Source: Pegea sp. RAD2-039
Taxonomy: Eukaryota > Chordata > Thaliacea > Salpida > Salpidae
Assembly (NCBI GenBank): GCA_034620365.1
Contig: JAQGEQ010000162.1
Location: 310,001-374,000, forward strand
Direction: 5' to 3'
DNA length: 64,000 nucleotides
Every line of letters starts with the position of its first letter. Position 1 is the stretch's first letter. This document shows, one piece after another, positions 8,861 to 50,570 of the stretch. The notes below the pieces were generated by a model. The model saw only the letters and a program-made list of their open reading frames with translations, searched no databases and was not told where the DNA came from. The translations under genes were made by a program, and so were the position numbers.

Positions 8861-8869
8861 TAGATGAGG

Positions 8870-21037: not shown

Positions 21038-21320
21038 GAAAACGAAATGGATCCAATCTTATTGGTAATGCTGTGACACTTGTTTAGATGTACTGATGGG
21101 GATATAGAATATAAGAGACCCCTGTCGAAGGATCACAATGCAGAGAACTAACTGAGGATATTTGAGGATCTAGCAAGCTAGATAGAACTATAGAGAATTA
21201 TAATAAAGCTGCAAGAATACTCGACCACCATACAGTGCACACAGCTTCTAACCTCATACCGTCCACCATCTCAAGCCTCCTAGCAACTGGATTACAAGCG
21301 CACGCCACAACGCCCGGCGA
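21038..21320 (-). ncRNA. 7SL RNA-derived element, copy 1
   Basis: Read on the minus strand, it begins GCCGGGCGTTGTGGCGTGCG, then CTTGTAATCCAG and AGGAGGCTTGAG. These match the 5' Alu-domain head of SRP 7SL RNA. It ends with CACAGC and GGATCCATTTCG, comparable to the 7SL 3' end, and then a T run. The middle (about 150 nt) has no SRP S-domain signature that I can find. A 7SL gene proper would be about 300 nt. Inference: a SINE or 7SL-derived RNA gene. The Pol III A box is expected in the head, but the B box is unclear. Confidence 0.75.
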
Positions 21321-22390
21321 AGGAAGTTTATAAAATTAAAATTTAAACTTTGTTTTTGATGATTATTTTTCTGCTTAAACATTATTTGCCCAATTTTTTA
21401 GCCTATCTTTTATGAAAACAATTTTAAAAACAAATTTTATTCATACTTGTTTATTATTAAAAATATTTAACTAAACTTTGTATTTTAAGTTAATTGAAGT
21501 CAAGCAACTATTATTAAGTTTGTAAAGTTTTTTTAACATTAAATGTTACCACTAAAATCTTAAGCCTTTTTATAAACATTTTAATATTACAGCATTTAAC
21601 ATACATTGGTAAATTAAATTCTAATTACTGAATTTGGTCAATAATTTTTATTTAAATTCTAATTATATTTATAATAAAGTTGATTTGCTCTGTTTTATCA
21701 AAGCTGATAATTTATATAATTCTTATTTATCAACTAATTTCACAATTTAGTTCATTTCACTGAGCAATCAGTAATCATTTAACAATTTTTTAACCCAAAA
21801 TTCCTTTAGTATTCCTTTTGTTTAACTTATTCACTATTACTTACTCAATACAGCAATTTTTACACATTTTATAAATAAGCTTGTTCTTTCTTTTACTAAA
21901 AATTTGATAATTAAGTTAATTTGATTTTTACTTATGAATATTATTTACAGTTTAAACTAAAATTAAATTTAACTATTTCTTTCATTAGATGCATTTTTTT
22001 ATGGAAATGTCACCTTAACTAGCTTCACTGAAAAATACTAAAGAGTACTTATTACAAAGTAAACTCTAATTTGATTCAACTATTTGTTTTATTTAGAATT
22101 TTCTCATTCATCTGATTCTACGATCGTATACAACGAAAAAATCTATACAAGAAAAATAATTTCAATATCAATTACTAAAAATCATTCAACGTAACAGTCT
22201 TGATAAAGTGAAGTTGTTTTGCCTACATTTTCAATATGCCTTTTGTGTTAAATTAAATGTAAGACTATTTTGTTGACTGAAAAGTTTACAAAAATAATTA
22301 TAGCAACTTGATTCTATTAATTAAAAAGTTTTATTATTAAACAATTAGTATTTGTAATATTGTAGAAATATAATTTCAGTAATTTTCTAC
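21321..22390. repeat. Array linker after 7SL element
   Basis: Collinear with 40365-41400 and 50571-51640, and its distal half with 57945-58281. Includes GATTCTACGATCGTATACAA. AT-rich, with no frame kept between copies. Confidence 0.7.
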
Positions 22391-22543
22391 CGTTTGCCTT
22401 TGATTGATCAGCCACTTTGTTAACCTTGCATTTAAGAGCTTTCTTAGAAGTTTCAGCAGCTGGAGATACATTAATATGAGGCTTCGTAGAGTTCTTAGTT
22501 GTTTCTTCACAATCTTGGAATTTTTCTCGACTTTGGCTGAAAC
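22391..22543 (-). CDS. Array hydrophilic 153-nt exon, copy 1
   Basis: Between AACAG and GTAGAA. The frame is open: FSQSREKFQDCEETTKN, STKPHINVSPAAETSKKALK, CKVNKVADQSKANG. Copies at 51641-51793 and 58282-58434 have exactly the same length and frame with mostly conservative changes (SQGREDF, KPPIEVSPAAE). It looks like a disordered linker. It lies just downstream of the Met exon on the minus strand. Confidence 0.6.
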
Positions 22544-22583
22544 CTGTTCAAATAAATTTCGATATATTTTAATTTGCTAAATA

Positions 22584-22706
22584 TCAATTTCCTTTTTTGT
22601 TACGTTTTTTAAAAAGTAAAAAGCAGTTTGAGCCCAACACCATCTCTTCCTGGCTAATAACCTTCTTGGCTAACAACCTTTCTTCCTGCTTTACAGCATC
22701 TTCCAT
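22584..22706 (-). CDS. Array Met-starting exon, copy 1
   Basis: Opens with ATG and reads MEDAVKQEERLLAKKVISQE, then EMVLGSNCFLLFKKR, closing at TGA. The other copies (41439-41561, 51827-51956, 58475-58597) read MGDVVKQEERLLAKKVISQE. It may be the N-terminus of the array gene, upstream of the FSQSRE exon. The donor is unclear, so the 3' edge is not fixed. Confidence 0.5.
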   Translation of the reverse strand: MEDAVKQEERLLAKKVISQEEMVLGSNCFLLFKKRNKKGN

Positions 22707-22819
22707 TATGACTCAAAAGACACTTTTCAATCTCTCTTTAAATACAAGCAAAGTTTTATTCTAAGCTTATACTTAACAACCTCTAAACATTTTTTCGTAC
22801 AAACTATATTTTAAAACTA

Positions 22820-24050
22820 ATTAAACTAAAATACAAGAAGAAATATGTAAGATATATTACAAAATATAAACTAACCAAAATTAAAAACCTAATTATTCAA
22901 AATTAGTAATACTTGAAATAAAAGTGCTTTAAGTAATAAATATTGAATAAAAGATTATGCAATTGAATGACTTATCAGATACTAAAAAAGTGTTTGTAGC
23001 AATAAAGTTAAACTTTTTTCAATGAAGCTAATAACCAATTTCAATTGATGTTATTAACACTTTACCAACAAAGTCTAATACAAACTTTGATCAAATGAAA
23101 ATAACAATTAAAATAATTAATCCAATCCCAAATGCATTCAAATCAAGAAATTATAGTGAATAGTTTTAAACAGAATTCTGCAAGATCAGTTAGATTAACA
23201 TAATTACATAAGTTCTTCATCTTTATTAAAAAATTTCAAGTAAAAAGATAAAAGTTTAGTAACAATAGTTTGAAAAGAGTTTAAAATGACTGCCTAAGAG
23301 CAAATGATATAATAATTTCATGTCTTAGAATTCTAGCATTTTCTTATATTGTATAGCAGCAGTTTACATTAAAGAAAGTTTGCACAGTTTTCTGTTTTAC
23401 TAAATAAAAGCTTTTTTATATAGTTTTATGGCTATTAATCTACTTTAGATAAAATTGAAAGATTGCAGACAGGGATAGAACATTTTTATTTTCAAGCCGT
23501 CTGCTTAAAAACTTAGTTTAATTTACAACTTAAAGCAAAAACTTATTTTAGACATAATTCATCTATTTAGTTATACTTTTAAATGTTTTTATCCTAAAAA
23601 TAAATAAGAAATATTTTTTGTAATCAAAATAGACCTTTGCAAGAAGTTTAATTCGATTTTTAGCAGTCAAAGAACTTTCCTGTAAATAACGAAAAGTTAA
23701 AAGTTTCTAATTCAAATAAACAATTAAAGTTTATAAACTTTATTGTTATACAGTTAGTATAAAGTTTAGATTTAAATATTATAAAATTGTTAGTTAATTA
23801 TTTTTAATACATAACTTAATCATATAACTTGTATATATTTTGTCATCGAAGCTGATTTGTCAATGTTTCCAGAATTGTGGTTACCTAAAAATTCTCAAAA
23901 GAAAGAAAATTGGATATGGAAGAAACTAACTATTTTCAAAAGTTCGACTTGCTGAGATGAAAGAAGTTATTTTAGGTGAGATTGAGTTTTGATGAAACGG
24001 TGTCTTCGATGATAATAACTCAACTAATTAGTCGACCTAGCTGGATTTCA
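22820..24050. repeat. Block C, copy 2
   Basis: Same family as 10905-12085. It ends near the GATGAAACGGTGTC variant and is followed by AT-rich unique sequence instead of R1, so the usual C-R1 junction is broken here. Confidence 0.7.
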
Positions 24051-24480
24051 AAAGCAATTAATTTATAATTAATTAGTCAATGATCAAAAACTAGTTAACG
24101 ATAAAAATAAATGACTTTTAATTCTTTGTAACATCAATTTAATTTGATTAGTTTTTTTTTGTCTGTTAATATAGCTTTGAATGAGTTTTCAAAAAGTAAT
24201 TAATACTTTCCATCATTCGATAAAATCAATAATAAAAATTAAACAAATGTCTGATGGAAAAGTTTTATAATTCGATCACAAATTTTTACAATTTTATAAA
24301 ATGATTTGATTAAACTTTTCTTAAATCAAAAACGTTTTATCTGTTTTTTAAGTTGAATTAATTATATTTACCCTAAAAAAACGTTTGCAAAAACAAGGTA
24401 GCAGCAGGAAAATAGTGACTTTGAAGTCAAAGTATTTAGCATCGAAATGCAATTGTAAGAAATTTAAATGATGTGCATCA
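24050..24480. other. AT-rich junction region
   Basis: Diverged fragment of the 18250-18500 segment (GTAGCAGCAGGAAAATAGTG). No intact exon. Confidence 0.4.
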
Positions 24481-24765
24481 AGATAGAATGTAAGACGTAA
24501 AAGAAAAATTAAGTATAAGCAAATGAAAGGCTGAAAATAAAAATGACAAGATGAATATTATAATGATGGAACCATCGATTCTGGGAGATAAATTTGTGAA
24601 TGAATAAGCTATTGCAACAAACGCACATCTGGCTGCAATGTGATTGAGATTGGATGATCGTAGAACTATTATCTATCTAGCTTTTTTTTGCTTCATCTGC
24701 AGAATCGGTTTGTTTTGGTTCACGAAAGATGTTGATGAATGTCTTCAAACTTAACATTCGTCTGC
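24480..24765 (-). pseudogene. Block B end plus C-terminal exon, copy at 24.7 kb
   Basis: Exon 24761-24669 reads MLSLKTFINIFREPKQTDSA. It is the only copy in which the 5' codons also lack a stop, though the tail end is changed (poly-A run). LQPDVRLLQ ends at 24609. Confidence 0.5.
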
Positions 24766-24769
24766 AAGT

Positions 24770-25980
24770 TAAACAAACTGTTTGTTAAACTGTTTGCTAG
24801 AAACGTACTTATATGTGCATTCCAAATCTAATTAGTTCTTATAAATTTTCTATTTAAACTTTATTTTAAACTTTTCTTGTTCAGAGAACAGTTCTGTAAT
24901 TTGATGTTTTACAAATAAAAGAAATACATTTTCTACAATTTCGATAAAAAAATTTAAATTGTTTCTAATACCAAAAAATTTCTTTGGTTCTTTAAAAAAT
25001 TGCAATAAATATAAATGAGGGAAAACTTAATTGGTGATTTAAAGCTGTTTAAACAGTAGTACAAGTTTAACTTGTTAGATGCATTTCATTTGTAATCTTT
25101 CAACTTTATATAAAAATAATGATCATGAAAATAGTAATTTAGTTTAAACTAAATGAGGTAACCTAATCAAACAAGAATCAACTAACTTCATTTAAAAGAT
25201 GAAAACCTCCGAACAACAAGTAGCACTTTTGAAACTACATCATAAACAACAGATTGTCTGACGAGATCTCTTAGTTATTAGATTAATGAGATTAGATATT
25301 TTTTGATTTAACTGAAAATCTTCGAATATATTTGTTGAATATAGATATTTAGTGGAAACCATCAAACTAGAGATTCTAAGAGGATTGTATAAAAACTTCA
25401 AAACATTTTTATTGAAAATCGATCAAACCTGAACAATTTACAGCATCTTATAAAACGTTTCGATTTTCTCATTTTGTAATCAGACAACCTCATCAACCGA
25501 TGTTTGTCTATCCAGTTCAAATATTTTCATCTTCCACCTAATAAGTAAACAAGAAGTTTTAATTTCGACCAACGCTAACAATTGTGTTTCTTTTGAAACT
25601 GACCATCAATATGCTTATTGTTTTTATTCTATTTTATCCCGAATCTCTAATATTGAGAGAGGAATTTCGATTCTTTTATTTTTATTCACTACCCCTTCGA
25701 AGTTCTACTTTCATTTTATCTACTAATTTCAAAATGGTGGATTCTGTGAAGAAAAACAATCATTAAAAGAAACCACTAGATAGCGCTATAATGAGAAGTT
25801 ACCTGTCAGATTGCGGAAGAAGTCATCTTTTAGGAAGTTCTTCAGTTTTTTTCTTTATTTTCGTGAAAAAGTTGTTTTGAACAAATTTGTTAAATATTTG
25901 TTAGTTTCTATGAAAAAAATTATAAAATGATTTGAACAAAGCAAGAGCAACTAATTTGTAAATAAGTTTCGAACTAACTT
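24770..25980 (-). pseudogene. Diverged array exon series
   Basis: 25537-25429 reads NWIDKHRLMRLSDYK, then MRKSKRFIRCCKLF (relative of the LMRMS exons). 25755-25590 reads ESTILKLVDKMKVELRR and then stops. The clearest older paralogue in the window; it shows which residues persist. Confidence 0.45.
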
Positions 25981-25984
25981 GAAC

Positions 25985-26115
25985 TAACAAAAGCAATCAA
26001 AGAAATTTCGTTTACTTCATAAGTAGGAACATCTACAACAAGTGCAGATATCTCTATCAACTCTAATATTGTTGCTGAAGTGGCTTTCAAATCTGTCAAC
26101 AATTTCCTTAATAAA
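25985..26115 (-). pseudogene. Diverged FLRDFEA-type exon
   Basis: Reads LLTDLKATSATILELIEISA, then LVVDVPTYEVNEIS. The ATS, LEL and ELV/ALV positions match the other copies. Confidence 0.45.
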
Positions 26116-26159
26116 AAAACTATAAATATAAATAAATAGATATATAAATAAATATATAG

Positions 26160-26869
26160 ACACAAAACTATGTGTCTTCCTCAAAGCAAATCATCACTGA
26201 CATAAAAGATTTCCCAATTTTACATTTGTCCTTTTTGAATAGTTGTTAGTGATGCTCTCTTTTATTCATCTGTAACCGCGGCATTGATATAAGCATTATA
26301 TTTAGTTGTGGTGACTGGTAACCAGAAATTCTATTTTCAAATAAAAACTTCTTAATAATTATAGTTCTTATTTTGTATTTTTAAAAGAGAAATCAATGAA
26401 ACAACCAAAAAAATCATTATATTGTCAATTTCATCTTTAATAAGGAGATCTATACCAATTTCCAACATGAAGTATAAAGTACAAGAGTTACAACTCAAAA
26501 TAAAAATGATGAAATGACGATATAGAACTTAAATAAGAATATAAAATTATTAAAAAAATGTATAACTCACTCGTGGTAATCTTTGAAAGTCATCCACTTA
26601 TATATTTACTTTAAAAGGTATTTGCTGGATTCGTTTTATTTCTAAAGAAAAGAATATTAGAAGATTAGTTAAATGTCCCAAATGAGTTGAAATTTCAATT
26701 TTTTATAATTAGAAACAATCCATCTTTAAAATAGAAAAGAAATAATATTTTAAATCCAATTTACAAAATATAAAAGCACTTGAAATTATTTCCATGATCT
26801 TTTAAAATGGAATCATTTTGATATATAATAACTTCGTTTTTACAGAAAATTTTGAAAAAAATAATGAAA
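26160..26869. other. AT-rich interval, apparently unique
   Basis: No frame, repeat or RNA signal recognised. Confidence 0.4.
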
Positions 26870-27529
26870 TTAAAAGAAATTGCTTTAGAAACTAAAACTA
26901 AAATTAATTACTATTATATAAAAGCTTATTTTATAGAAAGTTAATGAAACAGCTTTAATTATTATTTATTATCCTTATAATTAAAATAAAAAAATGTTTG
27001 TTTCAATTAAATAGTTCAATTAACTAAACTGAAATATTAAATTGATCTATGACAAAATTTAGTTAAATATAAAAATGATTTAAAATTATATGACAAATGT
27101 TTAAGATGTTGAAATGAAATATCTGTCTAAAAGAAAAAGTAGTAAGATTAATTATTTAGAATTTATATGTTTGTCATTTAAAGTTATTAAGACAAGTGAA
27201 GTTATATTAGCTTTTAATTGAAAAAAGCTGTTTATTTAAATTAAAAAACTAAGCACTGATATGCTACAGTCTACATTTTAAATTATATCTTTTTCTATTG
27301 ATAGAACCTAGTAATAAATTGTTGGTTAAAAAGGTTTTCAATTTTTATTTATTTTTATTATAAAGCTCTCATAAGTTAGGAACAGGTTTTTTCATTTGTC
27401 TTACTACTTTTACTAATAAAATTACTCTTTTAAAACATCAAACTGAAACACTAATGATTTTGAAAAAATTTGCGCTAAATGACCGTGAAATATTTTTAAA
27501 CTAAGATTTCAAATAGTTCTTAAAACTAT
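26870..27529. repeat. Array linker upstream of R1 copy 3
   Basis: Uninterrupted version of the block that is split by an insertion at 38350-38915. Confidence 0.7.
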
Positions 27530-29290
27530 CAAAAGATTCCACTATCAACCAAATCTCTATTTTGATTAAGTGGCTCCTCTGCCTTCTAAAATTTAAACAC
27601 TTTAATATTTTAATCAGATTAGGAAGTGATTTAGAGTCAATGCTTTTCTTGACAATTTGAAGAGAGAATCATTAGACAGTTGTTATGTTTAGATACGCTA
27701 ACAGTTGTATGCTAGTTGATCATGTGATCAGCTAATGTTGTGTTTATAATTGCAAAATTTTTATCAGTAGCATAGTAAGCTAATGAATTCTATAGCGCCT
27801 CTACTGGTTACTATTGTTTTGGTCGTTATGCTTCGTTGCTTACAAATGATTTCTGTGTCACGTGTTTAACCCTTGTTTACAAAAACAGCTTCATATTTTG
27901 TGCCTGAAATAACCAAGTGTTTTACAAGATTTTATTGCAATCGAAGCAGCGTTTTCGGGTTGATGAAACATCTGATGTTGATGACATCGGCAATTAATAA
28001 TTTGTAATGGGACTAGAAGAAAGACTAATGATATCACTAGTGGAGATTGCTAGAAATTGTTGTAAAATGTTGTAGAAATCATCAGTTGTTGTAGAAATGT
28101 TTACTTCAAATTTTACTTCAGAAACTATAATAAAAAAACTTTTAATGACTCATATAGAGGTTTAGTAGTTAAGAAACTAAATCACAAAACATGAAACCAT
28201 ATCTGTCACTGAATCAGAATACAGTTGTATAATTTTAAAAGTTTATGAAAATGTAGTTTTATATAAACCTAAATATTGTAGTTGAAGATTTACTCAAAAT
28301 AATTGTCCTGTTGGTTTTGATTAAGAATAACAGAAACAATTTATAGGCCTTTGCGGCAGTTTATGTTTAAAAGAACTTACTCTATAAAAAAGAAAGAAAG
28401 CGATTTATTTTGTAGTAAGCAAATCAGTTAGCAATTACAGAAGAGTTTGATTATAGAAAAAAATTGGAAATTTTGAACTTTTATACTTGCTTATAGTTAA
28501 CTTCAGCAAAGCAACTGACAAAAAGATAGCTTACAACAAAGAATGGTGCTCCCGGTGTCATTTTAGGGAAATAAACTCTTAAAACTCTCATAGGTCTCAT
28601 CTTAAATAGTTCATTAAAAACCTCAAAAAAAGATAAAATATCCTCACTATCCAAGTCTAATATACCAATCTTACAAACAATTTGATTATTTTAACAAGTA
28701 GCACCGACTTGAAGAATTTGCATGATAATAACATCTAGTATCTATCCACCGACTTGGAATCCAAATTAAGACTCTCTCGTTTGGCTTACAAGCAACAAAT
28801 GCAAAAATATGTTTAAAGTTAGTTGATAAGAGCTTTGAAAACTTATCAAAGATGATCTTACAAATATTTGAAAGAATAAAGATAAAAATGATTATTTCAA
28901 AAGCTTCATCTCACCAACAAGTATTTATGAAACCACTTCACGAGAAACGCTGACAAAAAATTCAAAAACACAAAATTGATCATGATATGATTTTATTAAA
29001 CATTTTCTTCAATATAGAAGAATTGAAACAGAAAATCGAGTTGAGAATAAAGTTGTCTTATAATTAAAATAAAAACTTCCCAATTAGTCTTTGCTTTCTT
29101 GTTTTTGTTATCAAAGCCATCTTTGTGGATTTACAAAACATTGTTGCACCTAAAAATTAGTAAATGACATCAACATACTTTTGATTCTACAAATCTTGTT
29201 TTATAAAAGATACACAAAAGTTGTAAAATAAATTTTTTGATGAACAATAATCTGTAAAACTTTAGACTAATTCTACATTGATTATTTTTA
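27530..29290 (-). repeat. R1 module, copy 3
   Basis: Lacks the AAAAAAGCTTAGAGAAGAG segment found in copies 1, 2, 5 and 7, so the plus-strand KLREEFY frame is lost. The EF-hand-like exon is kept. Confidence 0.8.
28535..28669 (-). CDS. EF-hand-like exon, R1 copy 3
   Basis: 135 nt, open. Loop DLDSEDILSFFE: the usual Gly at position 6 is Asp, which would weaken calcium binding if real. Downstream reads FKMRPMRVLRVYFPKMTPGA. Confidence 0.4.
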
Positions 29291-29790
29291 ATCATTATTT
29301 TAAATGATATTAAACAAACCAAATGAGAGTTTCTCCTAGTAAATCAATCTTTACATCAGCAACATACTCTTCAGTATTAACAAATTCTGTTGAATTCTGA
29401 GCCTTCATTTAATTATAGCTTTCCTAAGCCATCACAATATTCGAGACAAGTTTCTACCTTGTGATTACTCATAAATTGTTAATTCCAATTAAATTAGATG
29501 TAAAGGAAAAAGTATTTATATGCAAATGAACCACAAGGTCGAAGATAAATGCAGGCAATGGAATGCTATAAAAATGAAATTGTCGATTTTGATAAACATG
29601 ATTGTGATTAAATCATCCGATTAAATAAACTCACATCTGGCTGCAATGTGATTTAGATTTGATGATCGTGGAACTATTATTTATCTATCTGTTTTCTTGC
29701 TTCATATGCAGAATCGGTTTGTTTTGGCTCACCGAAGATGTTGATGAATGCCTTCAAAATTCACCTTCTACTGCAAGTTGAGAGAACTGT
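29290..29790 (-). pseudogene. 3' flank and C-terminal exon remnant
   Basis: Octamer ATGCAAAT at 29520-29527. The LQPDV piece (29636-29650) is truncated to CTCACATCTGGCTGCA. The exon remnant reads KAFINIFGEPKQTDS. Paired with 44700-45195. Confidence 0.45.
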
Positions 29791-30221
29791 TCATTAAACT
29801 GTTTGTAAACAAATATTTGGTTTTTGTATTCAAAAATTTGATAAGTATTTATAATTATTTTGATGTTTTGTAAATAAATCAATAACATTTTCTTCAATCT
29901 AAATATAAATTTCGAATTTATTTAAAATTTGAGAAAAAATTTGTGGATTTTGTGTTTTTTAAAACTGAAATAATTGAAATCAGGAAAAATTTTATTGGTG
30001 ATTTAAAGCTGTTTAAACAGTTATACAGGTTTATCTTGTTAGATATGGTTTAATTTATATACTCTAACAATTTTCTTTGAAAATTATGATCATAAAATCA
30101 GTAGTTTAGTTTTATTTCAAATCTGTTCGTTGATATTAGATGTTTGCTGGGGTTTTTCAAGATAAAATTATAATAGGACTTCATCAAAACAACAAATATT
30201 TTTAATGAAAATCAATGAAAC

Positions 30222-30330
30222 CTGAACAATCTACAACAACTGAAAAATGTTTAGATTTTCTCCTGTTGCATTCGGACATTCTCATCAGCTGACATTTGTC
30301 TAAATTGTCATCTGAATCTTCATTATCCAC
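30222..30330 (-). CDS. Array exon LDKCQLMRMSEC, best-preserved copy
   Basis: Fully open 109-nt stretch ending TTGTTCAG before GTTTCATTG. Reads VDNEDSDDNLDKCQLMRMSE, then CNRRKSKHFSVVVDCS. The 5' boundary reads ATCTG, not AG, so the acceptor may be lost. The twin copy is 45629-45737. Confidence 0.45.
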
Positions 30331-30825
30331 CAGATAGTTTAAAAAAGTTGGAAATTTGACCAACAAACTCAGTAATTTCGAATTTTGAAGTTTTATTTAA
30401 AGTTAATCAAATGGGTAACCAAAACTTTTATAAAAAAGTAGCTGATGATATAAATAGTTGAAAATGTAATGTAGTTTTTACTAAGAGTTTTTTTTAGTTT
30501 AATACTGACCAGCTTCTTATAGAAAATTTAGAAGCAGTTTAAATAAATATTTATTACTAACATGACGTTTAGATTCAATATTAATTTTAATCTAAATGAA
30601 TAATCAAAACTGTATTCATAGAAAGTAATAACAAATATGCAATTTATTTTTGATCTAGAGTTAAGTAATATAAAATGTAATTTTTCCTTAACAAAATCTT
30701 AGAAATAATATAAGTAATAAAATTATTATTTATACCTATATATATTTACAAAATATACTTAAATAAAAATCAAATTAAAATATTTATCTTTATATAAATA
30801 ATTTTATAAACAAAATAAAACAACA

Positions 30826-30955
30826 GTGTGTAAATATTTGATCAACATACATACCATACCATGCCACGAAGCTTATAACCTCAAACCTTCCACTATCTCA
30901 AGCCTCTTGGTAGCTGGATTACAAGCATATGCCACAACGCTCAGCGAATGTGATT
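30826..30955 (-). ncRNA. 7SL-derived head only (copy 5)
   Basis: The minus strand starts GCTGAGCGTTGTGGCATATG and then matches the 7SL head (TAATCCAGCTACCAAGAGGC). It is cut after about 125 nt into ACACACTG-type sequence. The plus-strand 30826-31029 frame is an artefact of this. Confidence 0.65.
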
Positions 30956-30999
30956 TTTCAAAATATTATTTAAAAGCAATGTTTTTTTTATATAATCTT

Positions 31000-31915
31000 C
31001 TCTTTCGAAAGTCACTTTTTAAATATTGATCAACTAAAGAAATAAAAGAGAAATGAACAAATTTGAAACTACATTCTTTTAAATCCTAAGCATTTTCAAG
31101 TTAATCTAAAATTAAAAATTTAAGTTTACTCAAAAACCTCTTTAATGAAATCAAAACTTGTTATTATTTAATATTTATGAATATGAAAATGTGTCATTCT
31201 ACATTACTTTAAAATTTCATAAATATAAATGTAATAAATAATGTTCTCTTTTCTAAAAGATTATAAATTTTTTATTTAGCATACATCATTTTCTTACTGA
31301 ATATTCTGATTGGTATTACTTGAAGGTAGTGTGTGATTCAATTTACTATAATATTCCTATAGTGAAGATAACATCTAGAAACTATACTAACCGTTCTACT
31401 AATATATGAATCAGAATTTTCTGTACAACACATTATTGTAAAAAAAGGAATTGTCAACTTCAATATAAACATCATCAACAGATGCTGTTGATATCATCAT
31501 CGATTAAATGGCTGCACATCAAAGTTCTTCAATTTGATAAATTCATTTCTTACGAACACTAGGGTAACAAGTCCAGTACGACAAAAGCTGCTCTGTACAA
31601 TTCAAAATCAAAACTAGAGTAAAATAGGTGTGTTTACTCAATACAACACTCTTCGGGATTTTCTTTTTAATGTTACTACGATAAGGCTTTTATACGTGTG
31701 TCAAAGGAGTTTATCTTCATTTAAGATCTGATAGAAATCTTTTTAATGCATCACGTCTAAAGGCAAAGAGCAAAGTAACATATCTTCATTTGCGTCCTAC
31801 TTTTTGCTGATGATGAAACAATTGTTGCAAAAGCTAAAACCTACAGATACTGATAGATTAATTCTCAGTAGCCTGCAACAACTTCGGAATCAAAATCAAT
31901 TTAAATATATTTCTA
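31000..31915. repeat. Part of segmental duplication (with 46400-47334)
   Basis: AT-rich first half. The second half contains CATCAACAGATGCTGTTGAT and a TAAGGCTTTTATACGTGTG block. No coding signal kept on both copies. Confidence 0.6.
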
Positions 31916-32940: not shown

Positions 32941-33009
32941 TCAGTGAAATTTACAAATTAATTCTGTTTTTTTTTTAAATTATTTTAATTAATTATCTAA
33001 AAATTTGGA

Positions 33010-33274
33010 AAAAGAAATGGGTCCAATACTACCGGTTAGGCTGTGACACTTATTTAGAGAAATGATCGGATGACTTTGTTAATATTCTGGTCAAAGTACT
33101 ACAATAGAGAAAATTGCCTAAAGAAATCAGGTAGAACATTGAACCAATTAGAATCAGAAAGAAGTTCGAACATCTGATCATAAAACAGTGTACACAGCTC
33201 CTAACCTCATACCGTCCACCATCTCAAGCCTCCTAGTAGCTGGATTACAAGCGCACGCCACAACGCCCGGCGAA
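33010..33274 (-). ncRNA. 7SL RNA-derived element, copy 2 (different middle)
   Basis: Head CGCCGGGCGTTGTGGCGTGC and TAATCCAGCTACTAGGAGGC. The 3' end is CACAGCCTAACCGG and TTGGACCCATTTC, followed by TTTTT, a Pol III terminator. The middle is unrelated to copies 1, 3 and 4. It includes ATGTTCGAAC, a B-box-like core. The head is closer to canonical 7SL (AGCTACTAGGAGG) than in the other copies. Confidence 0.75.
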
Positions 33275-33577
33275 AATACGTTTTCGAAATAATATTTATA
33301 CCTTTTTTCTTATCATAATATTTCTCCTTAAACATCAATTTCCTAATTTCATTGCTTTTTGAATAATTACATAAATAAAAACTTGTTTTTTTCTTACTTA
33401 TTTAATACAAAAAAAACTCTTAACTAAATTGCTGTTTTAGGTTATCGCACAATTAGTACTTGGAAGCAGCTGTCATCAGACATTGTCATATTAAGATCAC
33501 TCGCGTTGTTTAAGTAAAAGTTGAACTCATCTAATATTGCCAACATTACCATTTATAATTTGTGATTTGTTTTCGTT

Positions 33578-33690
33578 TTGATAATATTAACTCTATAGGT
33601 ATTATTTGTGAAAATGTATGTTAACGAGAGCTACTCTCTTCAGGCCTTCTGCCTCGCGTTTATTGTAATAAATAAATAAATAAAGAATTG
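33578..33690 (+). mobile_element. Retrotransposon 3'-tail-like sequence
   Basis: A GC-richer GAGAGCTACTCTCTTCAGG stretch (an inverted repeat around AGAGAGTA/TACTCTCT), then GCCTCGCGTTTATTG, and then tandem AATA units (33668-33684). Tetranucleotide tails of this type are typical of non-LTR retrotransposons and their SINEs. Family not identified. Confidence 0.4.
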
Positions 33691-33699
33691 AATAATTTA

Positions 33700-39384: not shown

Positions 39385-39850
39385 ATCAAAAGATCCCACT
39401 ATCAACCAAATCCCTATTTTGATTAAGTGGCTTGACTGCCTTCTAAAATTTAAACACTTTAATATTTTAATCAGATTAGGAAGTGATTTAGAATCAATGG
39501 TTTTTTCGACAATATGAAGAGAGAACCATGAGACAGTTGTTATGTTTAGATACGCTAACAGTTGTATGCTAGTTGATCATGTGATCAGCTAATGTTGTGT
39601 TTATAACTGCAAGATTTTTATCAGTGGCATAGTAGTCTGATGATTTCTATAGCGCCTCTACTGGTTACTATTGTTTTGGTCGTTATGCTTCGTTGCTTAC
39701 AAATGATTTCTGTGTCACGTGTTTAACATTTGTTTACAAAAACAGTTTCATATTTTGTGCCTGAAATAATCAAGTGTTTTACAAGATTTTATTGCAATCG
39801 AAGCAGCGTTTTCGGGTCGATGAAACATCTGATGTTGATGACATCATTAA
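39385..39850 (-). repeat. R1 module, truncated copy 4
   Basis: Keeps the GCGCCTCTACTGG core but is cut just after CATCATTAATTAA and joined to an ESYIF-type exon segment (39855-40060). The EF-hand-like exon is absent. Confidence 0.75.
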
Positions 39851-40090
39851 TTAAGTATTGTAGCTGATGATATAAATAGTCAAAAATGAGATTTAGTTTT
39901 TGCTAAAAATTGTTTATTATTTGAAACTGACCTGCAAATTTCAAACATTAGGAAAAAAATTTGGTTTCTTCGCTTCTCTATTCAAAATCTCATCGAAGTA
40001 AGAGTAAGTAGTTGTACTCTCATGTGACCTACAAAACTCAAAATGTAGGATTCTGTGAAAAAATTTTAAAAATTACCTTTTTAAAAATAG

Positions 40091-40364
40091 AAAAAGAAAT
40101 GGGTCCAATCTTATTGATTAGGCTGTGACACTTGTACTGATGGGGATATAGAATGTAAGAGACCCCTGTCGAAGAATCAAATTGCAGAGAATTAACTGAG
40201 GATATTTGAGGATTTAGCAAGCTAGATAGAACTATAGAGAATTATCATAAAGCTGCAAGAATACTCGACAAACACACAGTGTACACAGCTTCTAACCTCA
40301 TACCGTCCACCATCTCAAGCCTCCTAGCAAGTGGATTACAGGCGCACGCCACAACGCCCGGCGA
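40091..40364 (-). ncRNA. 7SL RNA-derived element, copy 3
   Basis: Same middle type as copies 1 and 4. The 3' end reads GGACCCATTTC then TTTTT. The head is intact (GCCGGGCGTTGTGGCGTGCG). Confidence 0.75.
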
Positions 40365-41438
40365 AGGAAATTTATAAAGTTAATTTTTAAACATTGTTTT
40401 TGATGATTATTTTTCTGCTTAAACATTATGTTCCAAATTTTTTAGCCTATCTTTTAAGATAACAATTTTAAAAACAAATTTTATTCATACTTGTTTATTA
40501 TAAAAAATATTTAACTAAACTTAGTATTTTAAGTTAATTGAAGTCTGGCAACTATTATTAAGTTTGTAATGTTTTTTTAACATTAAATGTTACCACAAAA
40601 ATTTGAAGCCTTTTTATGAATCTTTTAATATTTTAGCATTTAACATATATTGGTAAATTCAATTTTAATAACTGAATTTGGCCAATAATTTTTAATTAAA
40701 TTCTAATTATATTTATAAAAAGTTGATTTACTCTGTTTTATCTAAGCTGATATATTTTCTAACTCTTTTTTATCAATTAATTCCACAATTTAGTTCATTT
40801 CACTAAGCAATCAGTAATCACTTAACAATCGTTTAACCCAAAATTCGTTTATTATTCCTTCTGTTTAACTTATTCACTATTACTTACTCAATACAGCAAT
40901 TTTTGTAAATTTTATGAATAAGCTTGTTCTTTCTTTTAATAAAAATTTGATAATTAGGTTAATTTGATTTTAACTTATGAGCATTATTTACAGTCTAAAC
41001 TAAAATTAAATTTAACTATTTGTTTCATTAGATGCATTTTTTTTGGAAATTTCCCCTTAAATAGCTTCATTGAATAACACTAAAGAGTACTTATTATAAA
41101 GCAAACTCTATTTTTATTCAACGTTCTGTTTTATTTCATAATCTTCTCATTCATCTGATTCTACGATCGTATACAACGAAAAAATCTATACAAAAAATAA
41201 TTTCAATATCAATTACTAAAAATCATTCAACCTAACAGACTTGATAAAGTGAAGTTGGTTTGCCTACATTTTAAATATGCGTTTTGTGTTAAATTAAATA
41301 TAAGACTGTTTTGTTGACTGAAAAATTTATAAAAATGATTATAGCAACTTGAATTCTATTAATTAAAAAGTTATATTAGAAAACAGAAGATGGAGCCTAA
41401 CAACAACAAAATTTCAACATATTTTAAATTGCTAAATA
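40365..41438. repeat. Array linker after 7SL copy 3
   Basis: Collinear with 21321-22390, but the FSQSRE exon expected near 41390 has been deleted. Confidence 0.65.
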
Positions 41439-41561
41439 TCAATTTCCTTTTTTGTTACGTTTTTTAAAAAGTAAAAAGCAGTTTGAGCCCAACACCATCT
41501 CTTCCTGGCTAATCACCTTCTTGGCCAACAACCTTTCTTCCTGCTTCACAACATCTCCCAT
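41439..41561 (-). CDS. Array Met-starting exon, copy 2
   Basis: Reads MGDVVKQEERLLAKKVISQE, then EMVLGS. The following hydrophilic exon is missing, so this unit is probably non-functional. Confidence 0.4.
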   Translation of the reverse strand: MGDVVKQEERLLAKKVISQEEMVLGSNCFLLFKKRNKKGN

Positions 41562-41689
41562 TATGACTTAAAGGACACTTTTCAATCTCTTTTTAAATAC
41601 AAACAAACTTTTATTCTAAGCTTATACTTAACAACCTCTAAATATTTTTTATACAAACTATATTTTAAAACAAATTAAACTAAAATACA

Positions 41690-42895
41690 AGAAGAACAAT
41701 GTAAGATATATTAAAAAATATATAATTAGAACGAAGAACCTAATTATTCAAATATAGTAAAACTTGAAATAAAAGTGCGATAGAGATAAAAAATTATGCA
41801 AATGAATGATCTATCAGATACTTAAAAAGTGTTTGTAGCAATAAAGTTAAATTTTTTCAATAAAGCTAATAACCAATGTCAATTGATGTTATTAACACTT
41901 TACCAACAAAGTCTAATACAAAATTTGATCAAATGAAAGTAATAATTAAAATAATTAATCTGATCCAAAATGCATTCAAATCAAGATACTATAGTGGCTT
42001 AGTTTTAAAAAGAATTCTTCAAGATCAGTTAGATTAACATAATTATATAAGTTTTTCACCTACATTCAAAAATTCAATTAAAAATTTAAAAGATTAGTAA
42101 CTATAGTTTGAAAAGAGTGTAAAATGACTGCCTAAAGGCAAATGATATAATAATTTCATGTCTTAGAATTATAGTAATTTCTTAGATTGCATAACAGCAG
42201 TTTACCTTAAAGAAAGTTTGCACAATTTTCAATTTTACTAAATAAAAGCTAGTTTATATAGTTTTAAGGCTATTAATCTACTTTAGATAAAATTGAAAGC
42301 TTGCGGACAGGGATAGAACTTTGTTATATTCATGCCGTTTGCTTAAAAACTTAGTTTAATTTGCAACTTAAAGCAAAAACTTACTTTAAGCATATTTACA
42401 TCTTTTTAATTAAACTTTTAATTGTTTTCATCCTAAAAATTAATAAGAAATATTTTTTTCTATTACATTTAATAGACTTTTGCAAGAAGTATAATTCGAT
42501 TTTTAGCAGTCAAAGATTTTCCTGAAAATAAAGAAAAGTTAAAAGTTTTTAGTTCAAATAAACAATTAAAGTTTATAAACTTTATTGTTATAAAGTTGGT
42601 AAAAAGTTTATATTCAAATATTATAAAATTGTTAGTTAATTAATATCGAATACATAACTTAATCATATAATTTGTAAATAGTTTGTCATCAAAGTTGATT
42701 TGTCAATGTTTCCAGAATTGTTGTTACCTAAAGATTCTCAAAAGAAAGAAAATTGGATACGGAAGAAACTAACTATTTTCAAAAGTTTAACTTGCTGAGA
42801 TGAAAGAAGTTATTTTAGGTGAGATTGAGTTTTGATGAAACGGTTTCTTCGATGATAATGACTCAACTAATTAGTCGATCAAGCTGGAATTCAAA
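41690..42895. repeat. Block C, copy 3
   Basis: Joined to R1 copy 5 in the same way as block C copy 1 joins R1 copy 2. Confidence 0.75.
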
Positions 42896-42899
42896 AACT

Positions 42900-44700
42900 A
42901 TCGGAAGATTCCACTATCAACCAATTTCATATTTTGGTTAAGTAGCTTGCCTGCTTTCTAAAATTTAGACACTTTAATATTCTAATCAGATTAAAAATTA
43001 TTTAGAGTGAATGCTTTTTATGACAATTTGAAGAGAGAACCATGAAACAGTTGTTATGTTTAGATACGCTAACAGTTGTATGCTAGTTGATCATGTGATC
43101 AGCTAATGTTGTGTTTATAATTGCAAGATTTTTATCAGTGGCATAGTTAGCTGATGATTTCTATAGCGCCTCTACTGGTTACTATTGTTTTGGTCGTTAT
43201 GCTTCGTTGCTTACAAATGGTTTCTGTATCACGTGTTTAACAGTTGCTTAAAAAAAAGTTTCTTATGTTGTGACTAAAATAAACGAGTGTTTACCAAGAT
43301 TTTGTTGCACTTGAAGCAGCGTTTTTGGGTTGATGAAACAGCTGATGTTGATGACATCAGCAAATAAGTCAATATTAAAAAAAAGCTTAGAGAAGAGTTT
43401 TACATCAACAATGTAATGGGACTAGAAGAAAGACTAATGGTATCACTTGTGGAGAGTGCTAGAAATTGTTGTAGAATGTTTTAGAAGACTTCAGTTGTTG
43501 TAGAAATGTTCACTTCCAATTTTAATTCAGAAACTCTTATAAGAAAATTGTTAATGACTCATACAGAGGTTTAGAAATTAAGAAACTAAATCACAAAATA
43601 AAAAAACCATATCTGTTACTGAAACAGGGTAGAGTTGTATATTTTTAAACGTTTATGAAAATGTAGTTTTATATAAACCTAAAAACTGTAGTCGAACATT
43701 TACTCAAAGTAATTGTTTTTTTTGTTTTGATTACGAATAACAGAAACAATTTATAGGCCTTTACGCCAGTTTAAGTTTAAAATAGCTTGATCTATAAATA
43801 AGAAAGAAAGCAATTTATTTTGTAGTAAGCAAATCAGTCAGCAATTACAGAAGAGTTTGATTATAGAAAAAAATTGGAAATTTTGAACTTTTATACTTGC
43901 TAGTAAACTTCAGCAAAGCAACTGACAAAAAGATAGCTTACAACAAAGAATGGTGCTCCGGTTGTCATTTTAAGGAAAGAAACTCTCAAAACTCTCATAG
44001 GTCTTATCAAAAAAAGTTCATTAAAAACCTCAAAAAAAGATAAAATACCCTCACTATCTGAGTCTAATATACCAATCTTACAAGCAATTTGATTATTTTA
44101 ACAAGTAGCACCGACTTGAAGATTTTGCATGATAATAACATCAAGTATCTATCCACCGACTTGGAATCCAAAGTAAGAATTTCTCGTATGGCTTACAAGC
44201 AACAAATGCAAAAATATGTTTAAAGTTAGTTGATAAAAGCTTTGAAAACTTATCAAAGATGATCTTACATATATTTGAAAGAATAAAGATAAAAATGATT
44301 ATTTCAAAAGCTTCATCTCACCAACAAGTCTTTATGAAACGACTTCACGAGAAACGCTGACAAAAAATTCAAAAACACAAAATTGATCATGATATGATTT
44401 TATTAAAGTTTTTCTTCAATATAGAAGAATTGAAACAGAAAATCGAGTTGAGAATAAAGTTGTCTTATAATTAAGATAAAAACTTCCCAATTAGTCTTTG
44501 CTTTCTCGTTTTTGTTATCAAAGCTATCTTTGTAGATTTACAAAACATTGTTGCACCTAAAAATTAGTAGATGACATCAACATACTTTTGATTCTACAAA
44601 TCTTGTTTTATAAAAGATACACAAAAGTTGTAAAATAAATTTTTTGATGAACAATAATCTGTAAAACTTTAGACTAATTCTACACTGATTATTTTTAATC
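42900..44700 (-). repeat. R1 module, copy 5
   Basis: Contains the EF-hand-like exon 43942-44076. The minus-strand frame reads ADVINISCFINPKTLL and is open to GTAAAC. On the plus strand a mirror frame is also open (RFWVDETADVDDIS). Confidence 0.8.
43942..44076 (-). CDS. EF-hand-like exon, R1 copy 5
   Basis: 135 nt, open. The loop begins DSDSEGILSFFE, followed by EVFNELFLIRPMRVLRVSFL. Confidence 0.45.
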
Positions 44701-46230
44701 ATTATTTTAAATGATATTAAACAAACCAAATGAGAGTTTCTCCTAGTAAATCAATCTTTACATCAGCAACATACTCTTCAGTATTAACAAATTCTGTTGA
44801 ATTCGTAGCCTTCATTTAATTATAGCTTTCCTAAGCCATCACAATATTCGAGACAAGTTTTTTCCCTGTGATTACTCATAAATTGTTAATTCCAATTAAA
44901 TTAGATGTAAAGGAAAAAGTATTTATATGCAAATGAACCACAAGGTCGAAGATAAATGCAGGCAATGGAATGCTATAAAAATGAAATTGTCGATTTTGAT
45001 AGACATGTTTGTGAATAAATATTCAATTCAACAAACTCACATCTGGCTGCAATGTGATTTAGATTTGATGATCGTGGAGCTATTATTTATCTAGCTGTTT
45101 TCTTGCTTCATCTGCAGAATGGGTTTGTTTTGGTTCATGAAAGATGTTGATAAATATCTTCAAACTTCACGTTCTACTGCAAGTTGAGAGAACTGTTCAT
45201 TAAACTCTTTGTAAACAAATATTTGGTTTTTGTATTCAAAAATTTGATAAGTATTTATAATTATTTTGATGTTTTGTAAATAAATCAATAACATTTTCTT
45301 CAATCTAAATATAAATTTCGAATTTATTTAAAATTTGAGAAAAAAATTGTAGATTTTGTGTTTTTTAAAACTGAAATAATTGAAATCAGGAAAAATTTTA
45401 TTTTGTGATTTAAAGCTGTTTAAACAGTTATACAGGTTTATCTTGTTAGATATGGTTTAATTTATATACTCTAGCAATTTTCTTTGAAAATTATAATCAT
45501 AAAATTAATAGCTTAGTTTTATTTCAAATCTGTTCGTTGATATTAGATGTTTGCTGGAGTTTTTCAAGATAAAATTATAATAGGACTTCATCAAAACAAC
45601 AAATATTTTTAATGAAAATCAATGAAACCTGAACAATCTACAGCAACTGAAAAATGTTTAGATTTTCTCTTGTTGCATTCGGACATTCTCATCAGCTGAC
45701 ATTTGTCTAAATTGTCATCTGAATCTTCATAATCCACCAGATAGTTTAAAAAAGTTGGAAATTTGACCAACAAACTCAGTAATTTCGAATTTTGAAGTTT
45801 TATTTAAAGTTAATCAAATGGGTAACCCAAACTTTTATAAAAAAGTAGCTGATGATATAAATAGTTGAAAATGTAATGTAGTTTTTACTAAGAGTTTTTT
45901 TTAGTTTAATACTGACCAGCTTCTTATAGAACATTTAGAAGCAGTTTAAATAAATATCTATTACTAACATGACTTTTAGATTCAATATTAATTTTAATCT
46001 AAATGAATAATCAAAACTGTGTTTATAGAAAGTAATAACAAATATACAATTCAGTGTTGATCTAGAGTTAAGTAATATGAAATGTAATTGTTCTTTAAAA
46101 AAATCTCAAAAATAATAAAAGTAATAAAATTATTATTTATATCTATATATATTTACAAAATACATTTAAATAAACATCAAATTAAAATATTTATCATTAT
46201 ATAAATAATTTTATAAACAAAATAAAACAA
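44700..46230 (-). pseudogene. Duplicate of 29290-30825 with array exon remnants
   Basis: Octamer 44937-44944, C-terminal exon remnant at 45060-45190, LMRMSEC exon 45629-45737. Collinear with the 29-31 kb segment throughout. Confidence 0.55.
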
Positions 46231-46360
46231 ACAGTGTGTATATATTTGATCAACATACATACCATACAATGCCACGAAGCTTATAACCTCTAACCTTTCA
46301 CTATCTCAAGCCTCTTGGTAGCTGGATTACAAGCGTATGCCACAACCCTCAGCGAATGTG
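46231..46360 (-). ncRNA. 7SL-derived head only (copy 6)
   Basis: Partner of the copy at 30826-30955 in the segmental duplication. Same truncation point. Confidence 0.6.
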
Positions 46361-47500
46361 ATTTTTCAAAATATTATTTAAAGGCAATGTTTTTTTTTTA
46401 TATAATCTTCTCTTTCGAAAGTCACTTTTCAAATATTGATCAACTAAAGAAATAAAATAGAAATGAAACAAATTTGAAACTAAATTTTTTTTAATCCTAA
46501 CTATTTTCAAGTTAATCTAAAATTAAAAATTTAAGTTTACTCAAAAACCTCTTTAATGAAATCAAAACTTGTTATTATTTAATATTTATGAATATGAAAA
46601 TGTGCAATTCTACATTACTTTAATATGTCATGAATATAAATGTAATAAATAATGTCCTCTTTTCAAAAATATTATAAATTTTTTAATTATGATACATCAT
46701 TTTCTTACTGAATATTCTGATTGGTATTACTTGAAGATAGTATGTGATTCAATTTACTACTCTAATATTCATATAGTGAAGATAACATCTAGAAACTATA
46801 CTAACCGTTCTACTAATATGTGAAGCAGAATTTTCTTTACAACAGATTATTGTAAAAAAAGGAATTGTCAACTTCAATATAAACATCATCAACAGATGCT
46901 GTTGATATCATCACCGATTAAATTACTGCACATCAAAGTTCTTCAATTTGATAAATTCATTTCTTACGAACACTAGGGTAACAAGTCCAGTAAGACAGAA
47001 CCTGCTATGTACCATTCAAAATCAAAAATAGAGTAAAATAGGTGTGTTTACTCAACACAACACTCTTCCGGATTTTCTTTTCAATGTTACTACGATAAGG
47101 CTTTTATACGTGTGTCAAAGTAGTTTATCTTCATTTAAGATCTGATAGAAATCTTTTTAATGCACCACGTCTAAAGGCAAAGAGCAAAGTAAAATACATC
47201 ATCATTTGCGTCCTACTTTTTGCTGATGATGAAACAATTGTTGCATAATAAGCTAAAACCTACAGATGCTGATAGACTAATTCTCAGCAGCTTGCAACAA
47301 CTTTGGAAATAAAATCGATTTAAATATTGTTCTAGACGTCCATCTATTTTGTAAAAGTTAGATTTATTCTTATGTTTGTAATTGTTCATTAACATTTTAC
47401 TGATTTTATAAATCTCTTGTGGCACCCACAAACGCTAAAGTTTAAATGGTTAATAAATACAGTAAAGAAAGTGAAACCTAATTAACTGATATCAGCTTTG
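46361..47500. repeat. Second half of segmental duplication
   Basis: Collinear with 30950-32060, including AGACGTCCATCTATTTTGTA and the TTGTGGCACCCACAA hairpin. The 47431-47213 minus-strand frame has no counterpart support. Confidence 0.65.
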
Positions 47501-47514
47501 CTGAATTTTTTTGA

Positions 47515-47531
47515 ACCGCCGAAATGGCGGT
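47515..47531. repeat. Isolated ACCGCC/GGCGGT hairpin
   Basis: Same 6-bp stem and GAAAT loop as 10342-10358, but the CRE part of the repeat is absent. It is followed at about 47560 by a piece of block B. Confidence 0.6.
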
Positions 47532-47559
47532 GTACGAAAAGTATAAAATTAGAAATTCA

Positions 47560-48190
47560 AGTGACAAGATGAATATTATAACGATGGAACCATCGATTAT
47601 GGCAGACAAATTTGTGAATGAATAAGCTATTGCAACAAACGAACATCTGGCTGCAATGTGATTGAGATTTGATGATCGTGGAACTATTATTTCTCTAGCT
47701 GTTTTCTTGCTTCATCTGAAGTGCTGGCTTTGTTTTGACTCACCGAAGTTTTGACTCAACATATACCAAACATCAAATCTCATTTGCTATTCTAATGTAC
47801 TCGATTTCTTTTGGTCAAGCATTAGTTAATACACCTTGTCAAAAAAAATGTGTTTGTCCCAACTTTTCTGTAAGGACACTTTCAGTAGTAATGTATCAAG
47901 GTAGAATGTAAGACGTAAAATAAAAAATTAGTATATGCAAATGAATGGCTGAAAATAAAAATGACAAGATGAATATTATAAAGATGAAACCATCGATTAT
48001 GGCAGACAAATTTGTGAATGAATAAGCTATTGCAACAAACGCACATTTGGCTGCAATGTGATTGAGATTTGATGATCGTGGAACTATTATTTATCTAGCT
48101 GTTTTCTTGCCTCATCTGCAGAATCGATTGGTTTTGGTTTATGAAAGATGTTGATGAATGTCTTCAAAATTCACGTTCGTCTGCAAGTTA
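47560..48190 (-). pseudogene. Two consecutive LQPDVRLLQ/C-terminal exon copies
   Basis: A truncated copy (47560-47755; stop at 47627) is followed by a fuller one (47757-48190; stop at 48027, octamer at 47935-47942). The second has the complete FINIF exon with acceptor. Confidence 0.5.
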
Positions 48191-48589
48191 AAAAAACTGT
48201 CTGTTAAACTGTTTGTAAACAAATTTTTGTTTTTGTATTCAAAATTTGATACGTGTTTATAATTATTTTGATGTTTTGTAAAATGATAAAATTATTTTCT
48301 TTAATCTAAAGATAGATATTCAAATTATTTAAAAATTAGAAAACAATTTGTAGATTTTGAGTTTTTAAACTGAAATAAGTGAAAACAGGAAAAATTTTAT
48401 TGGTCATTTAAAGCTGTTTTCTCATTTGGTAAAATCAATAATAGAAAACAAACGTTTGATGAAAAACCCTTTATTATCGGATCACAAATTTTTACAATTA
48501 TTACAAAAATCATTTTATAAAAGTTTCTTGGAGTCTTAAATCAAAAAGCTTTTATTTATTTCAAGTTGAATTATATATATTTACTTCTT

Positions 48590-49685
48590 AAGAAAATTTT
48601 GCAACAACAAAGTAGCAACATGAAAGTAGTGACTTTGAAGTCAAAGTATTTAGCATCCAAATGCAATTCTTCGTTGATATTAGATGTTTGCTTGAGTGTT
48701 TCAAGATAAGATTATAAGAGGACTGCATCAAAACAACAAATATTTTTAATGAAAATCAATGAAACCTGAATAAGCTATAGCAACTGAAAAAAGTTTAGAT
48801 TTTCTCCTGTTGCATTCGGACATTCTTATCAGCTGACATTTGTCTAAATAGTTCAAATATCTTCATCAACCACCTGATAAGTACGATCAAGTCTTAACAA
48901 ACAAATCTATTAATCTTTTATTTACAAATTACCTGATAATTAACATATTTTTTAGAAAGATCTCTTTGGTGAAATCTTTATATTGTACCATAATCTTTAA
49001 GTTTGCTTCAAATCTTAGAAAAAGATTCGTAGATATCAGAATTCTGCTGGAATCTATAAATATAAAGAAAACTGTAATAAACCAATAAATAATGTAAATG
49101 ATTTCAAATTGAACTAACCTGAACAAACAACAGCAACTGAAAAAACGTCTGATTTTATCATTTTGTATTTAGACATTCTCATCAGCCGAGATTTGTCAAT
49201 CAAGTTCAGATCATCTCTTATTAGTTACATAAGCTTTATATTTGACCAACAAACCCAGTAACCTTCAATTTACAAGTATTGTTTAAAGATAATCAGTTGT
49301 GTAACTCAAAATTTTTATCAAAATTTAAACTTGTAGCTGATGATATAAATAGTTAAAAATGAGATTTAGTTTTTGCTAAAAATTATTTATTATTTGAAAC
49401 TGACCAGCAAAGTTCAAACATTAGGAAAAAAATTTGGTTTCTTCGCTTCTCTATCCAAAATCTCATCGAAGTAAGAGTAAGTAGTTGTACTCTCATGTGA
49501 CCTAGAAAACTCAAAATGTAGGATTCTGTGAAGAAAATCAATCATTAAAATAAATCACAAGATAGCGCTGTAGTAACAATTTACCTGACAATTAAAAAAT
49601 GTCTTTTTAAATCATCAAAAGTTGAAACATTTACAACAAATTCATATATCTTCATCAACTCCAGTATTGTGGAAAAAGTAAAGGA
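48590..49685 (-). pseudogene. Array exon series, copy at 48.6-49.7 kb
   Basis: Same exon order as 36.5-37.7 kb. The RILISTNLFLRFEAN exon (about 49055-48945) is open. The FLRDFEA exon is truncated at 49680, where it joins linker sequence. Confidence 0.5.
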
Positions 49686-50289
49686 TGATGTTAACAACTA
49701 AGACTAATAATCCTAAATTAAGAAATCAATGGTGACACACTATATGAATCATCCAAAAAAAACTTTCCTTCAAGAAATTTTTATCAAATGCGTTCTATCA
49801 AAAAAAATATTCAACATTTACATTTATATAAACTAGTTATTTGTAGAAGTCAGAACTGCAAAACTAATTTTATATTTTATCTGCATTTTTTAAAGCCTTT
49901 TATAAAATTATTAAGAAATTATGATTTCTTCTAAAGTTCAATCAAAACACACATTTGTATAAAGATAATGAAATTAAAAGAAATTGCTTTAGAAACTAAA
50001 ACTAAAATTAATTACTAATATATAAAAGCTTATTTTTTGTTACATTTTTTAAACTAAAAGAAATAGACCCTGAACATAATTATTTATCTATTCAAAAAGG
50101 AAAATTGCTTTTTGCACTGTTTAAAAGCCTTGTTTACTTTTGTTATACTAAAGTTGTGATTTTTTAAAAGTCTGAATTTACAAAGGTAAAGAATTACCAG
50201 TAAATTTAATTAATTAATTTACCTGGTAAAAGATTTAATAGATTAATATAATTTTAGATATAATTTTAATCACCTTATTAAAAACAGAA
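49686..50289. repeat. Linker fragments before 7SL copy 4
   Basis: 49685-50035 matches 500-840. 50036-50110 matches 20860-20940. About 50170-50280 is AT-rich and seems unique. Confidence 0.5.
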
Positions 50290-50570
50290 AAATAAATGGG
50301 TCCAATCTTATTGGTTAGGCTGTGACACTTGTTTAGATGTACTGATGAGGATATAGAATATGAGAAACCCCTGTCGAAGCATCACAATGCAGAGAACTAA
50401 CTGAGGATATTTGAGAATCTAGCAAGCTAGATAGAACTATAGAGAATTATCATAAGGCTGCAAGAATACTCGACGACCATACAAGTGCACACAGCTTCCG
50501 GCCTCATACCGTCCACCATCTCAAGCCTCCTAGCAACTGGATTACAAGCGCACGCCACAACGCCCGGCGA
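50290..50570 (-). ncRNA. 7SL RNA-derived element, copy 4
   Basis: Same middle as copies 1 and 3, with an intact head. The 3' end reads GGACCCATTTA then TTTTTC. Confidence 0.75.

Follow-up and report, generated by a model that had tools for sequence, protein, structure and literature searches.

What becomes of a 7SL RNA gene when copies of it keep both ends and lose the centre? This question is raised by a 64,000-nucleotide stretch of DNA from the salp Pegea sp. RAD2-039 (GenBank contig JAQGEQ010000162.1, here contig C72, positions 310001-374000), which we call the window. It contains several elements that carry the 5' head and the 3' end of 7SL RNA, the RNA of the signal recognition particle (SRP), around another core. 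Our answer is that the two long types, A and B, are probably locally duplicated genes that encode a family of small RNAs derived from 7SL, and not short interspersed elements (SINEs). The window was analysed together with searches of the whole genome of 105.7 Mb in 387 contigs. Its GC content is about 26%, and values of 26-29% are listed for genes of assemblies of the rotifer Brachionus (PMC6555955). Searches for COX1 and for Chitin_bind_4 returned no match; the latter result speaks against an arthropod host, although a missing match is no proof that the domain is absent.

All elements of the window lie on the minus strand. Taken from the start G through the end of the T run, the long ones consist of a 7SL head, a core, a 7SL tail and a T run. 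Type A is represented by A1 (280 nucleotides (nt), 21039-21318), A2 (272 nt, 40091-40362) and A3 (281 nt, 50288-50568), and type B by one element (263 nt, 33009-33271) out of 16 near-identical copies in the genome. The 7SL model RF00017 matches A1 at 58.4 bits (21041-21318), A2 at 68.3 bits (40093-40362), A3 at 53.7 bits (50290-50568) and B at 76.3 bits (33011-33271); only B exceeds the model cut-off of 70 bits, while A1, A2, A3 and C1 remain below it. C1 is the first of two head-only copies, type C, located at 30826-30955 and matched at 30817-30945 with 30.0 bits. The second, C2 (46231-46360), is not among the RF00017 matches at E <= 0.1, and was recognised by BLAST with 95% identity to C1 and 78% to the 7SL head. 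A sequence-only reading of the window had described four long elements with 7SL ends and a T run, as well as two head-only copies, and both descriptions hold. It did not mention that the cores of A and B are unlike, nor that flanks are common to several copies. A match of the B head to mir-1268 (30.5 bits, cut-off 83) was taken as chance.

The genome also contains genuine 7SL genes, which make the loss in A and B visible. Four full-length genes were found by genome search, three on contig C258 and one on contig C1 (distinct from copy C1), with scores of 256-263 bits. The head of B is 98.7% identical to 7SL across 75 nt. The alignment of B to RF00017, however, covers model positions 1-299 only with 129 positions skipped, which leaves no S domain visible. 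When the S-domain region of the genuine genes was used as a DNA query across the genome, no S-domain DNA was found in the array of A, B and C copies; all five scored places are accounted for by the four genuine genes and by a fragment of 52 nt on C84. The array elements are therefore 7SL ends without the 7SL centre. In terms of RF00017 membership, the Alu domain with its UGUNR motif is present and the S domain (helices 6 and 8) is absent. The earlier claim that the S domain is lacking is thus supported, and a full SRP match including helix 8, set in advance as the result that would contradict it, did not occur. True SRP genes are ruled out by the skipped positions and by the silence of the S-domain query in the array.

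Compared with 7SL RNA, A and B share the 5' part of about 75 nt and the 3' part of about 40 nt, and differ by lacking the S domain and by having another core of about 136-154 nt. In global alignment, the A and B cores resemble each other better than 1000 of 1000 shuffles. Aligned globally to the S domain, the A core is matched by 319 of 1000 shuffles and the B core by 54 of 1000; these values do not identify the core as a degenerate S domain, the likeness being significant for neither type. The core may nevertheless be an S domain that has diverged very far. The simplest reading of these alignments is that A and B inherited one replaced or very diverged core from their common ancestor. No source of the core was found elsewhere in the genome, the B core query reaching the array only and the A query, with 40 of 89 candidates scored, reaching the array contigs and a single C22 fragment.

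The copies are numerous and clustered. A 28-mer of the head, GAGGCTTGAGATGGTGGACGGTATGAGG, occurs at 65 genome sites with up to 3 mismatches and its reversed control at none, which places the head homology far above chance, as the earlier reading supposed. Five array contigs hold 54 of these sites (35 on C72, 13 on C282, 3 on C280, 2 on C94 and 1 on C189), including 7 that are C-like. The others are the 4 genuine 7SL genes, 1 fragment on C22 and 6 dispersed copies (C53, C58 twice, C114, C259 and C44). On C72 all 35 heads lie on the minus strand, and C282 has heads on both strands. Element counts for A, B and C come from the best-scoring candidates only and are lower bounds. There are at least 31 A-like matches of 91% or more: 24 of full length (beginning at nt 1 or nt 3), the C22 fragment (C22:133216-133415, nt 37-237 of A, 97%, outside the array), and 6 of a subclass A', which is type A without its first 17 nt (C282:235114, C282:260900, C189:4008, C280:10198, C72:208139 and C72:393818). 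The sequence upstream of A' is alike in the three copies read (two on C282 and one on C189) and unlike that of A. The B core query scored 16 genome places, all inside the array and confined to C72, C282 and C280, and each of the 16 belongs to a full element. Type C has at least 16 near copies including C1, at 93% or more. An exact scan of viral and prokaryote collections with a 29-nt head pattern returned 0 matches.

The region in front of the elements was duplicated with them. A pattern search that permitted 31 spacings found ATGTTTAAGSAGAAA exactly at -64..-50 in 36 of 36 matches, with 0 in the reversed control; it is carried by all 16 B copies and by 20 of the 24 full-length A copies. Copies within A and within B are related, so that these 36 cases represent two lineages and not 36 independent cases. 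In the window, the B motif ATGTTTAAGGAGAAA occupies 33321-33335 (minus strand, -64..-50) and resembles a proximal sequence element (PSE) by its position, and a TATA-like box, TATAAATA, is read from the sequence at 33293-33300 (minus strand, -29..-22). The same pattern search places ATGTTTAAGCAGAAA on the minus strand at 21368-21382 for A1, 40412-40426 for A2 and 50618-50632 for A3. A TTTAAA-like sequence is found near -29 in A, and the genuine 7SL genes of C258, too, are preceded near -28 by a TATA-like sequence. When the consensus upstream sequences of A (12 loci) and B are compared, 49 of 70 positions agree in register, and no more than 33 agree at any of 59 other offsets. Such an upstream motif at constant spacing points to duplicated genes. 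Compared by eye, the sequences upstream of U6 and of 7SL showed no convincing likeness to the motif. Motif, TATA-like box and T run together suggest an external, type-3-like promoter of RNA polymerase III (Pol III), from which A and B would be transcribed.

The putative RNAs retain the means to form an Alu domain. Pairing was examined in an alignment of 31 sequences, namely 2 of the 4 genuine 7SL genes, 15 of the 16 B copies and 14 A copies. It excludes L009 and L010 (identical to L011), L016 (identical to L015) and L029, whose locus is that of L005; the C22 fragment, all C copies and the six A' copies, truncated at the 5' end, are also outside it. The pairs of the B Alu domain and of basal helix 5 were scored on the 30 distinct rows of 7SL, A and B, where 97.1% of 1260 cells pair, compared with 37-48% when the pairs are slid. 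G13 and G14 are invariant across the 31 sequences, as is the UGUNR motif T23 G24 T25 A26 A27. Type A has T in place of C33, which we take to act as a loop partner. The whole B sequence folds better than its shuffles (z -2.38). The UGUNR motif is recognised by SRP9/14 (PMC8185352), and binding of SRP9/14 by the A and B RNAs might be expected on this ground.

Conservation is the next line of evidence, and it differs by class. When the 16 B copies, taken as a complete set, are compared in pairs, they are identical at -70..-45 and diverge on average by 0.46% across the head, 1.85% across the core and 3.2% across the tail; in the 5' flank the mean rises to 6.4% at -180..-101 and 13.9% at -1100..-181. 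In the B head 2 of 78 sites vary, and 121 of 220 do so in the 5' flank; the 29% obtained for the 3' flank is set aside, since it combines copies from differing contexts. The 15-nt motif is intact in A1, A2 and A3. The identity profile of C1 against C2 differs about as much within the element as outside it. Judging from these patterns, B is likely constrained by purifying selection, A is likely constrained weakly at best, and the C copies are likely decaying.

The rival that survives best, although we think it rather unlikely, is that the elements are passengers, that is, non-functional 7SL chimeras in a segmentally duplicated array, where the low divergence of B reflects recent copying or gene conversion. 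Segmental duplication is the setting under this explanation and under ours alike: counting only self-matches of at least 600 bases, 84% of the window has one or more further copies, either within itself or in C282:160001-263378, and the longest 80 self-match rows show 74-96% identity; the part C282:160001-224000 shows none of this similarity. B is found in two unlike 3' contexts, as after recombination, and the A and C copies of the window are little or no more conserved than their flanks. Passengers do not readily account for the contrast between the distant B 5' flank and the 0-0.5% of the motif region and head, with a gradient between them, nor for the equal distance from motif to start in two diverged lineages, nor for the full length of all 16 B copies.

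Several results nevertheless weigh against duplicated, functional genes. Covariation, which the passenger explanation would also expect to be weak, consists of double changes in 2 pairs, and 45 of 500 shuffles score as high. A1 folds worse than its shuffles (z +1.36), and the cores alone show no clear gain (z -1.24 and -0.59). The local alignment of the A and B cores is ordinary, with 615 of 1000 shuffles as good. A1-A3 diverge by 4.3% in the head, 7.5% in the core, 8.1% in the tail, 9.0% at -70..-45 and 9.7% in the 5' flank; this sample of three is small but less biased than a set of 12 from the 24 full-length A loci, which was picked by score and overstates the conservation of A (head 0.2%). 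The U6 genes of the same genome have a different upstream motif, and for this reason the PSE label is positional only. Gene conversion could, as an alternative to selection, have made the B copies alike.

The sequence-only reading had implied a 7SL-derived SINE family, and here it must be divided. The 7SL derivation stands, as do the retained ends of the Alu domain, the T run and the loss of the S domain; the SINE part is not supported, and spread of a SINE1 family through retroposition is in our view improbable. SINE1 families do keep the 7SL head and Alu domain and lose the S domain (PMC7245038), and the six dispersed heads and the C22 fragment could be seen in the same light. Of the SINE1 characters, the 7SL-derived head was found; dispersed insertions were not, with 54 of the 65 heads on array contigs, and neither were target-site duplications. 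In all 28 A and B loci the longest shared words are 5-7 nt, and the 95th percentile of the control is 8. For a retroposition tail the picture is mixed. The elements end with the 7SL 3' end and the T run without an adjoining A-rich tail; about 10 A in a row do occur in certain B copies, though roughly 40 nt beyond the T run and without contact to the element, and they are absent in L015 and L016. The SINE explanation is thus disfavoured because of the clustering, the single strand on C72, the duplicated flanks and the lack of duplications beyond control, and the upstream motif was copied along with the element. Some retroposition may have occurred among the six dispersed head copies, which lie on five other contigs. 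That the elements are divergent working SRP RNAs from which a full SRP is still assembled is hardly credible, since the full-length model match of B (76 bits) is offset by its skipped positions, by the lack of S-domain DNA in the array and by the four proper 7SL genes elsewhere.

If A and B are duplicated genes, their history can be proposed as follows. A 7SL gene would have been duplicated, and the copy would have retained the two parts of the Alu domain, at the 5' head and the 3' end, while the S domain at its centre was replaced or diverged past recognition. An external promoter of the inferred type-3-like kind, with the PSE-like motif at -64, the TATA-like box near -29 and the T-run terminator, would then have been gained. 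The lineage would have split into A and B, and segmental duplication would have produced the approximately 47 copies of A, A' and B, with purifying selection maintaining B, maintaining A weakly and leaving C to decay. In the RNA, the Alu domain would fold and bind SRP9/14. SRP19, SRP54 and SRP68/72 could not be carried, because the S domain is absent, and signal sequences would presumably not be selected. By analogy with BC200 or snaR, the RNAs might act on ribosomes and translation, and the core might supply a second specificity.

Other features share this duplicated setting. Two near-identical copies of an SLC6-like transporter, recognised by eye, lie between array elements (C282:230027-232038 and 255849-257860). 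A C2H2 zinc-finger piece, likewise recognised by eye, travels with the array on C282. A PCGF-like (Polycomb RING finger) gene is found at window 4914-8902 on the minus strand, with a Pfam score below cut-off and a best solved-structure match of 7.9e-6. Its RING exon query matches 17 places in the genome, and 13 of these contain in-frame stops, among them 11 of the 12 on C72 and C94; stops are absent from the copy in the window, from one match on C50 and from two matches on C58. The query is possibly part intron, and the stops are therefore no proof of pseudogenes. Another conserved island, of about 170 bp, occurs at 27681-27851 and has seven window copies. The 370-nt stretch that holds it starts further at about 1489, 12145, 39438, 42953, 53067 and 59708. 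The island diverges by about 1% at four of these places, where the window median is 8%; the stretch, none of whose six frames is free of stops, is perhaps a promoter or another RNA gene.

Known descendants of 7SL offer partial parallels. Mammalian descendants with an Alu domain bind SRP9/14 and affect translation (BC200) or associate with ribosomes (snaR) (PMC8185352, PMC10498592, PMC7073466). The snaR RNAs of great apes are likewise small Pol III RNAs, derived from 7SL via Alu and multiplied by genomic duplication into several subsets; they differ by internal A/B-box promoters, an Alu origin and a length of about 117 nt (PMC7073466, PMC10498592), whereas A and B have an apparently external promoter, an apparently direct 7SL origin and both Alu-domain ends. 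In BC200 (BCYRN1) of primates a 7SL-like Alu domain is likewise combined with other sequence; this RNA binds SRP9/14 and acts as an inhibitor of translation (PMC10498592, PMC8185352), but its gene is single-copy and has a type 2-hybrid promoter. SINE1 families (Alu, B1 and hagfish SINE1-1_EBu) lack the S domain and unite the 5' and 3' portions of 7SL; they are mobile, the hagfish family having target-site duplications of about 17 bp and a tail derived from a long interspersed element (PMC7245038). As of 2020, well-defined 7SL-derived SINEs were known only in Euarchontoglires and hagfish, with putative marsupial and guinea-pig cases (PMC7245038). Our literature search, in which subscription papers were poorly covered, found no invertebrate 7SL-chimera family.

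We tentatively propose, as a possibility beyond the duplicated-gene reading itself, that an invertebrate evolved nearly 50 Alu-domain RNA genes by direct gene duplication with no SINE stage, exchanging the S domain for a new conserved core that redirects the SRP9/14 ribosome-binding module. If true, this family would represent an independent conversion of the Alu domain into a new regulatory RNA. It would also show which parts are needed, such as the SRP9/14 site and the base of helix 5, and which can be swapped, and the array would provide many copies for testing what selection keeps.

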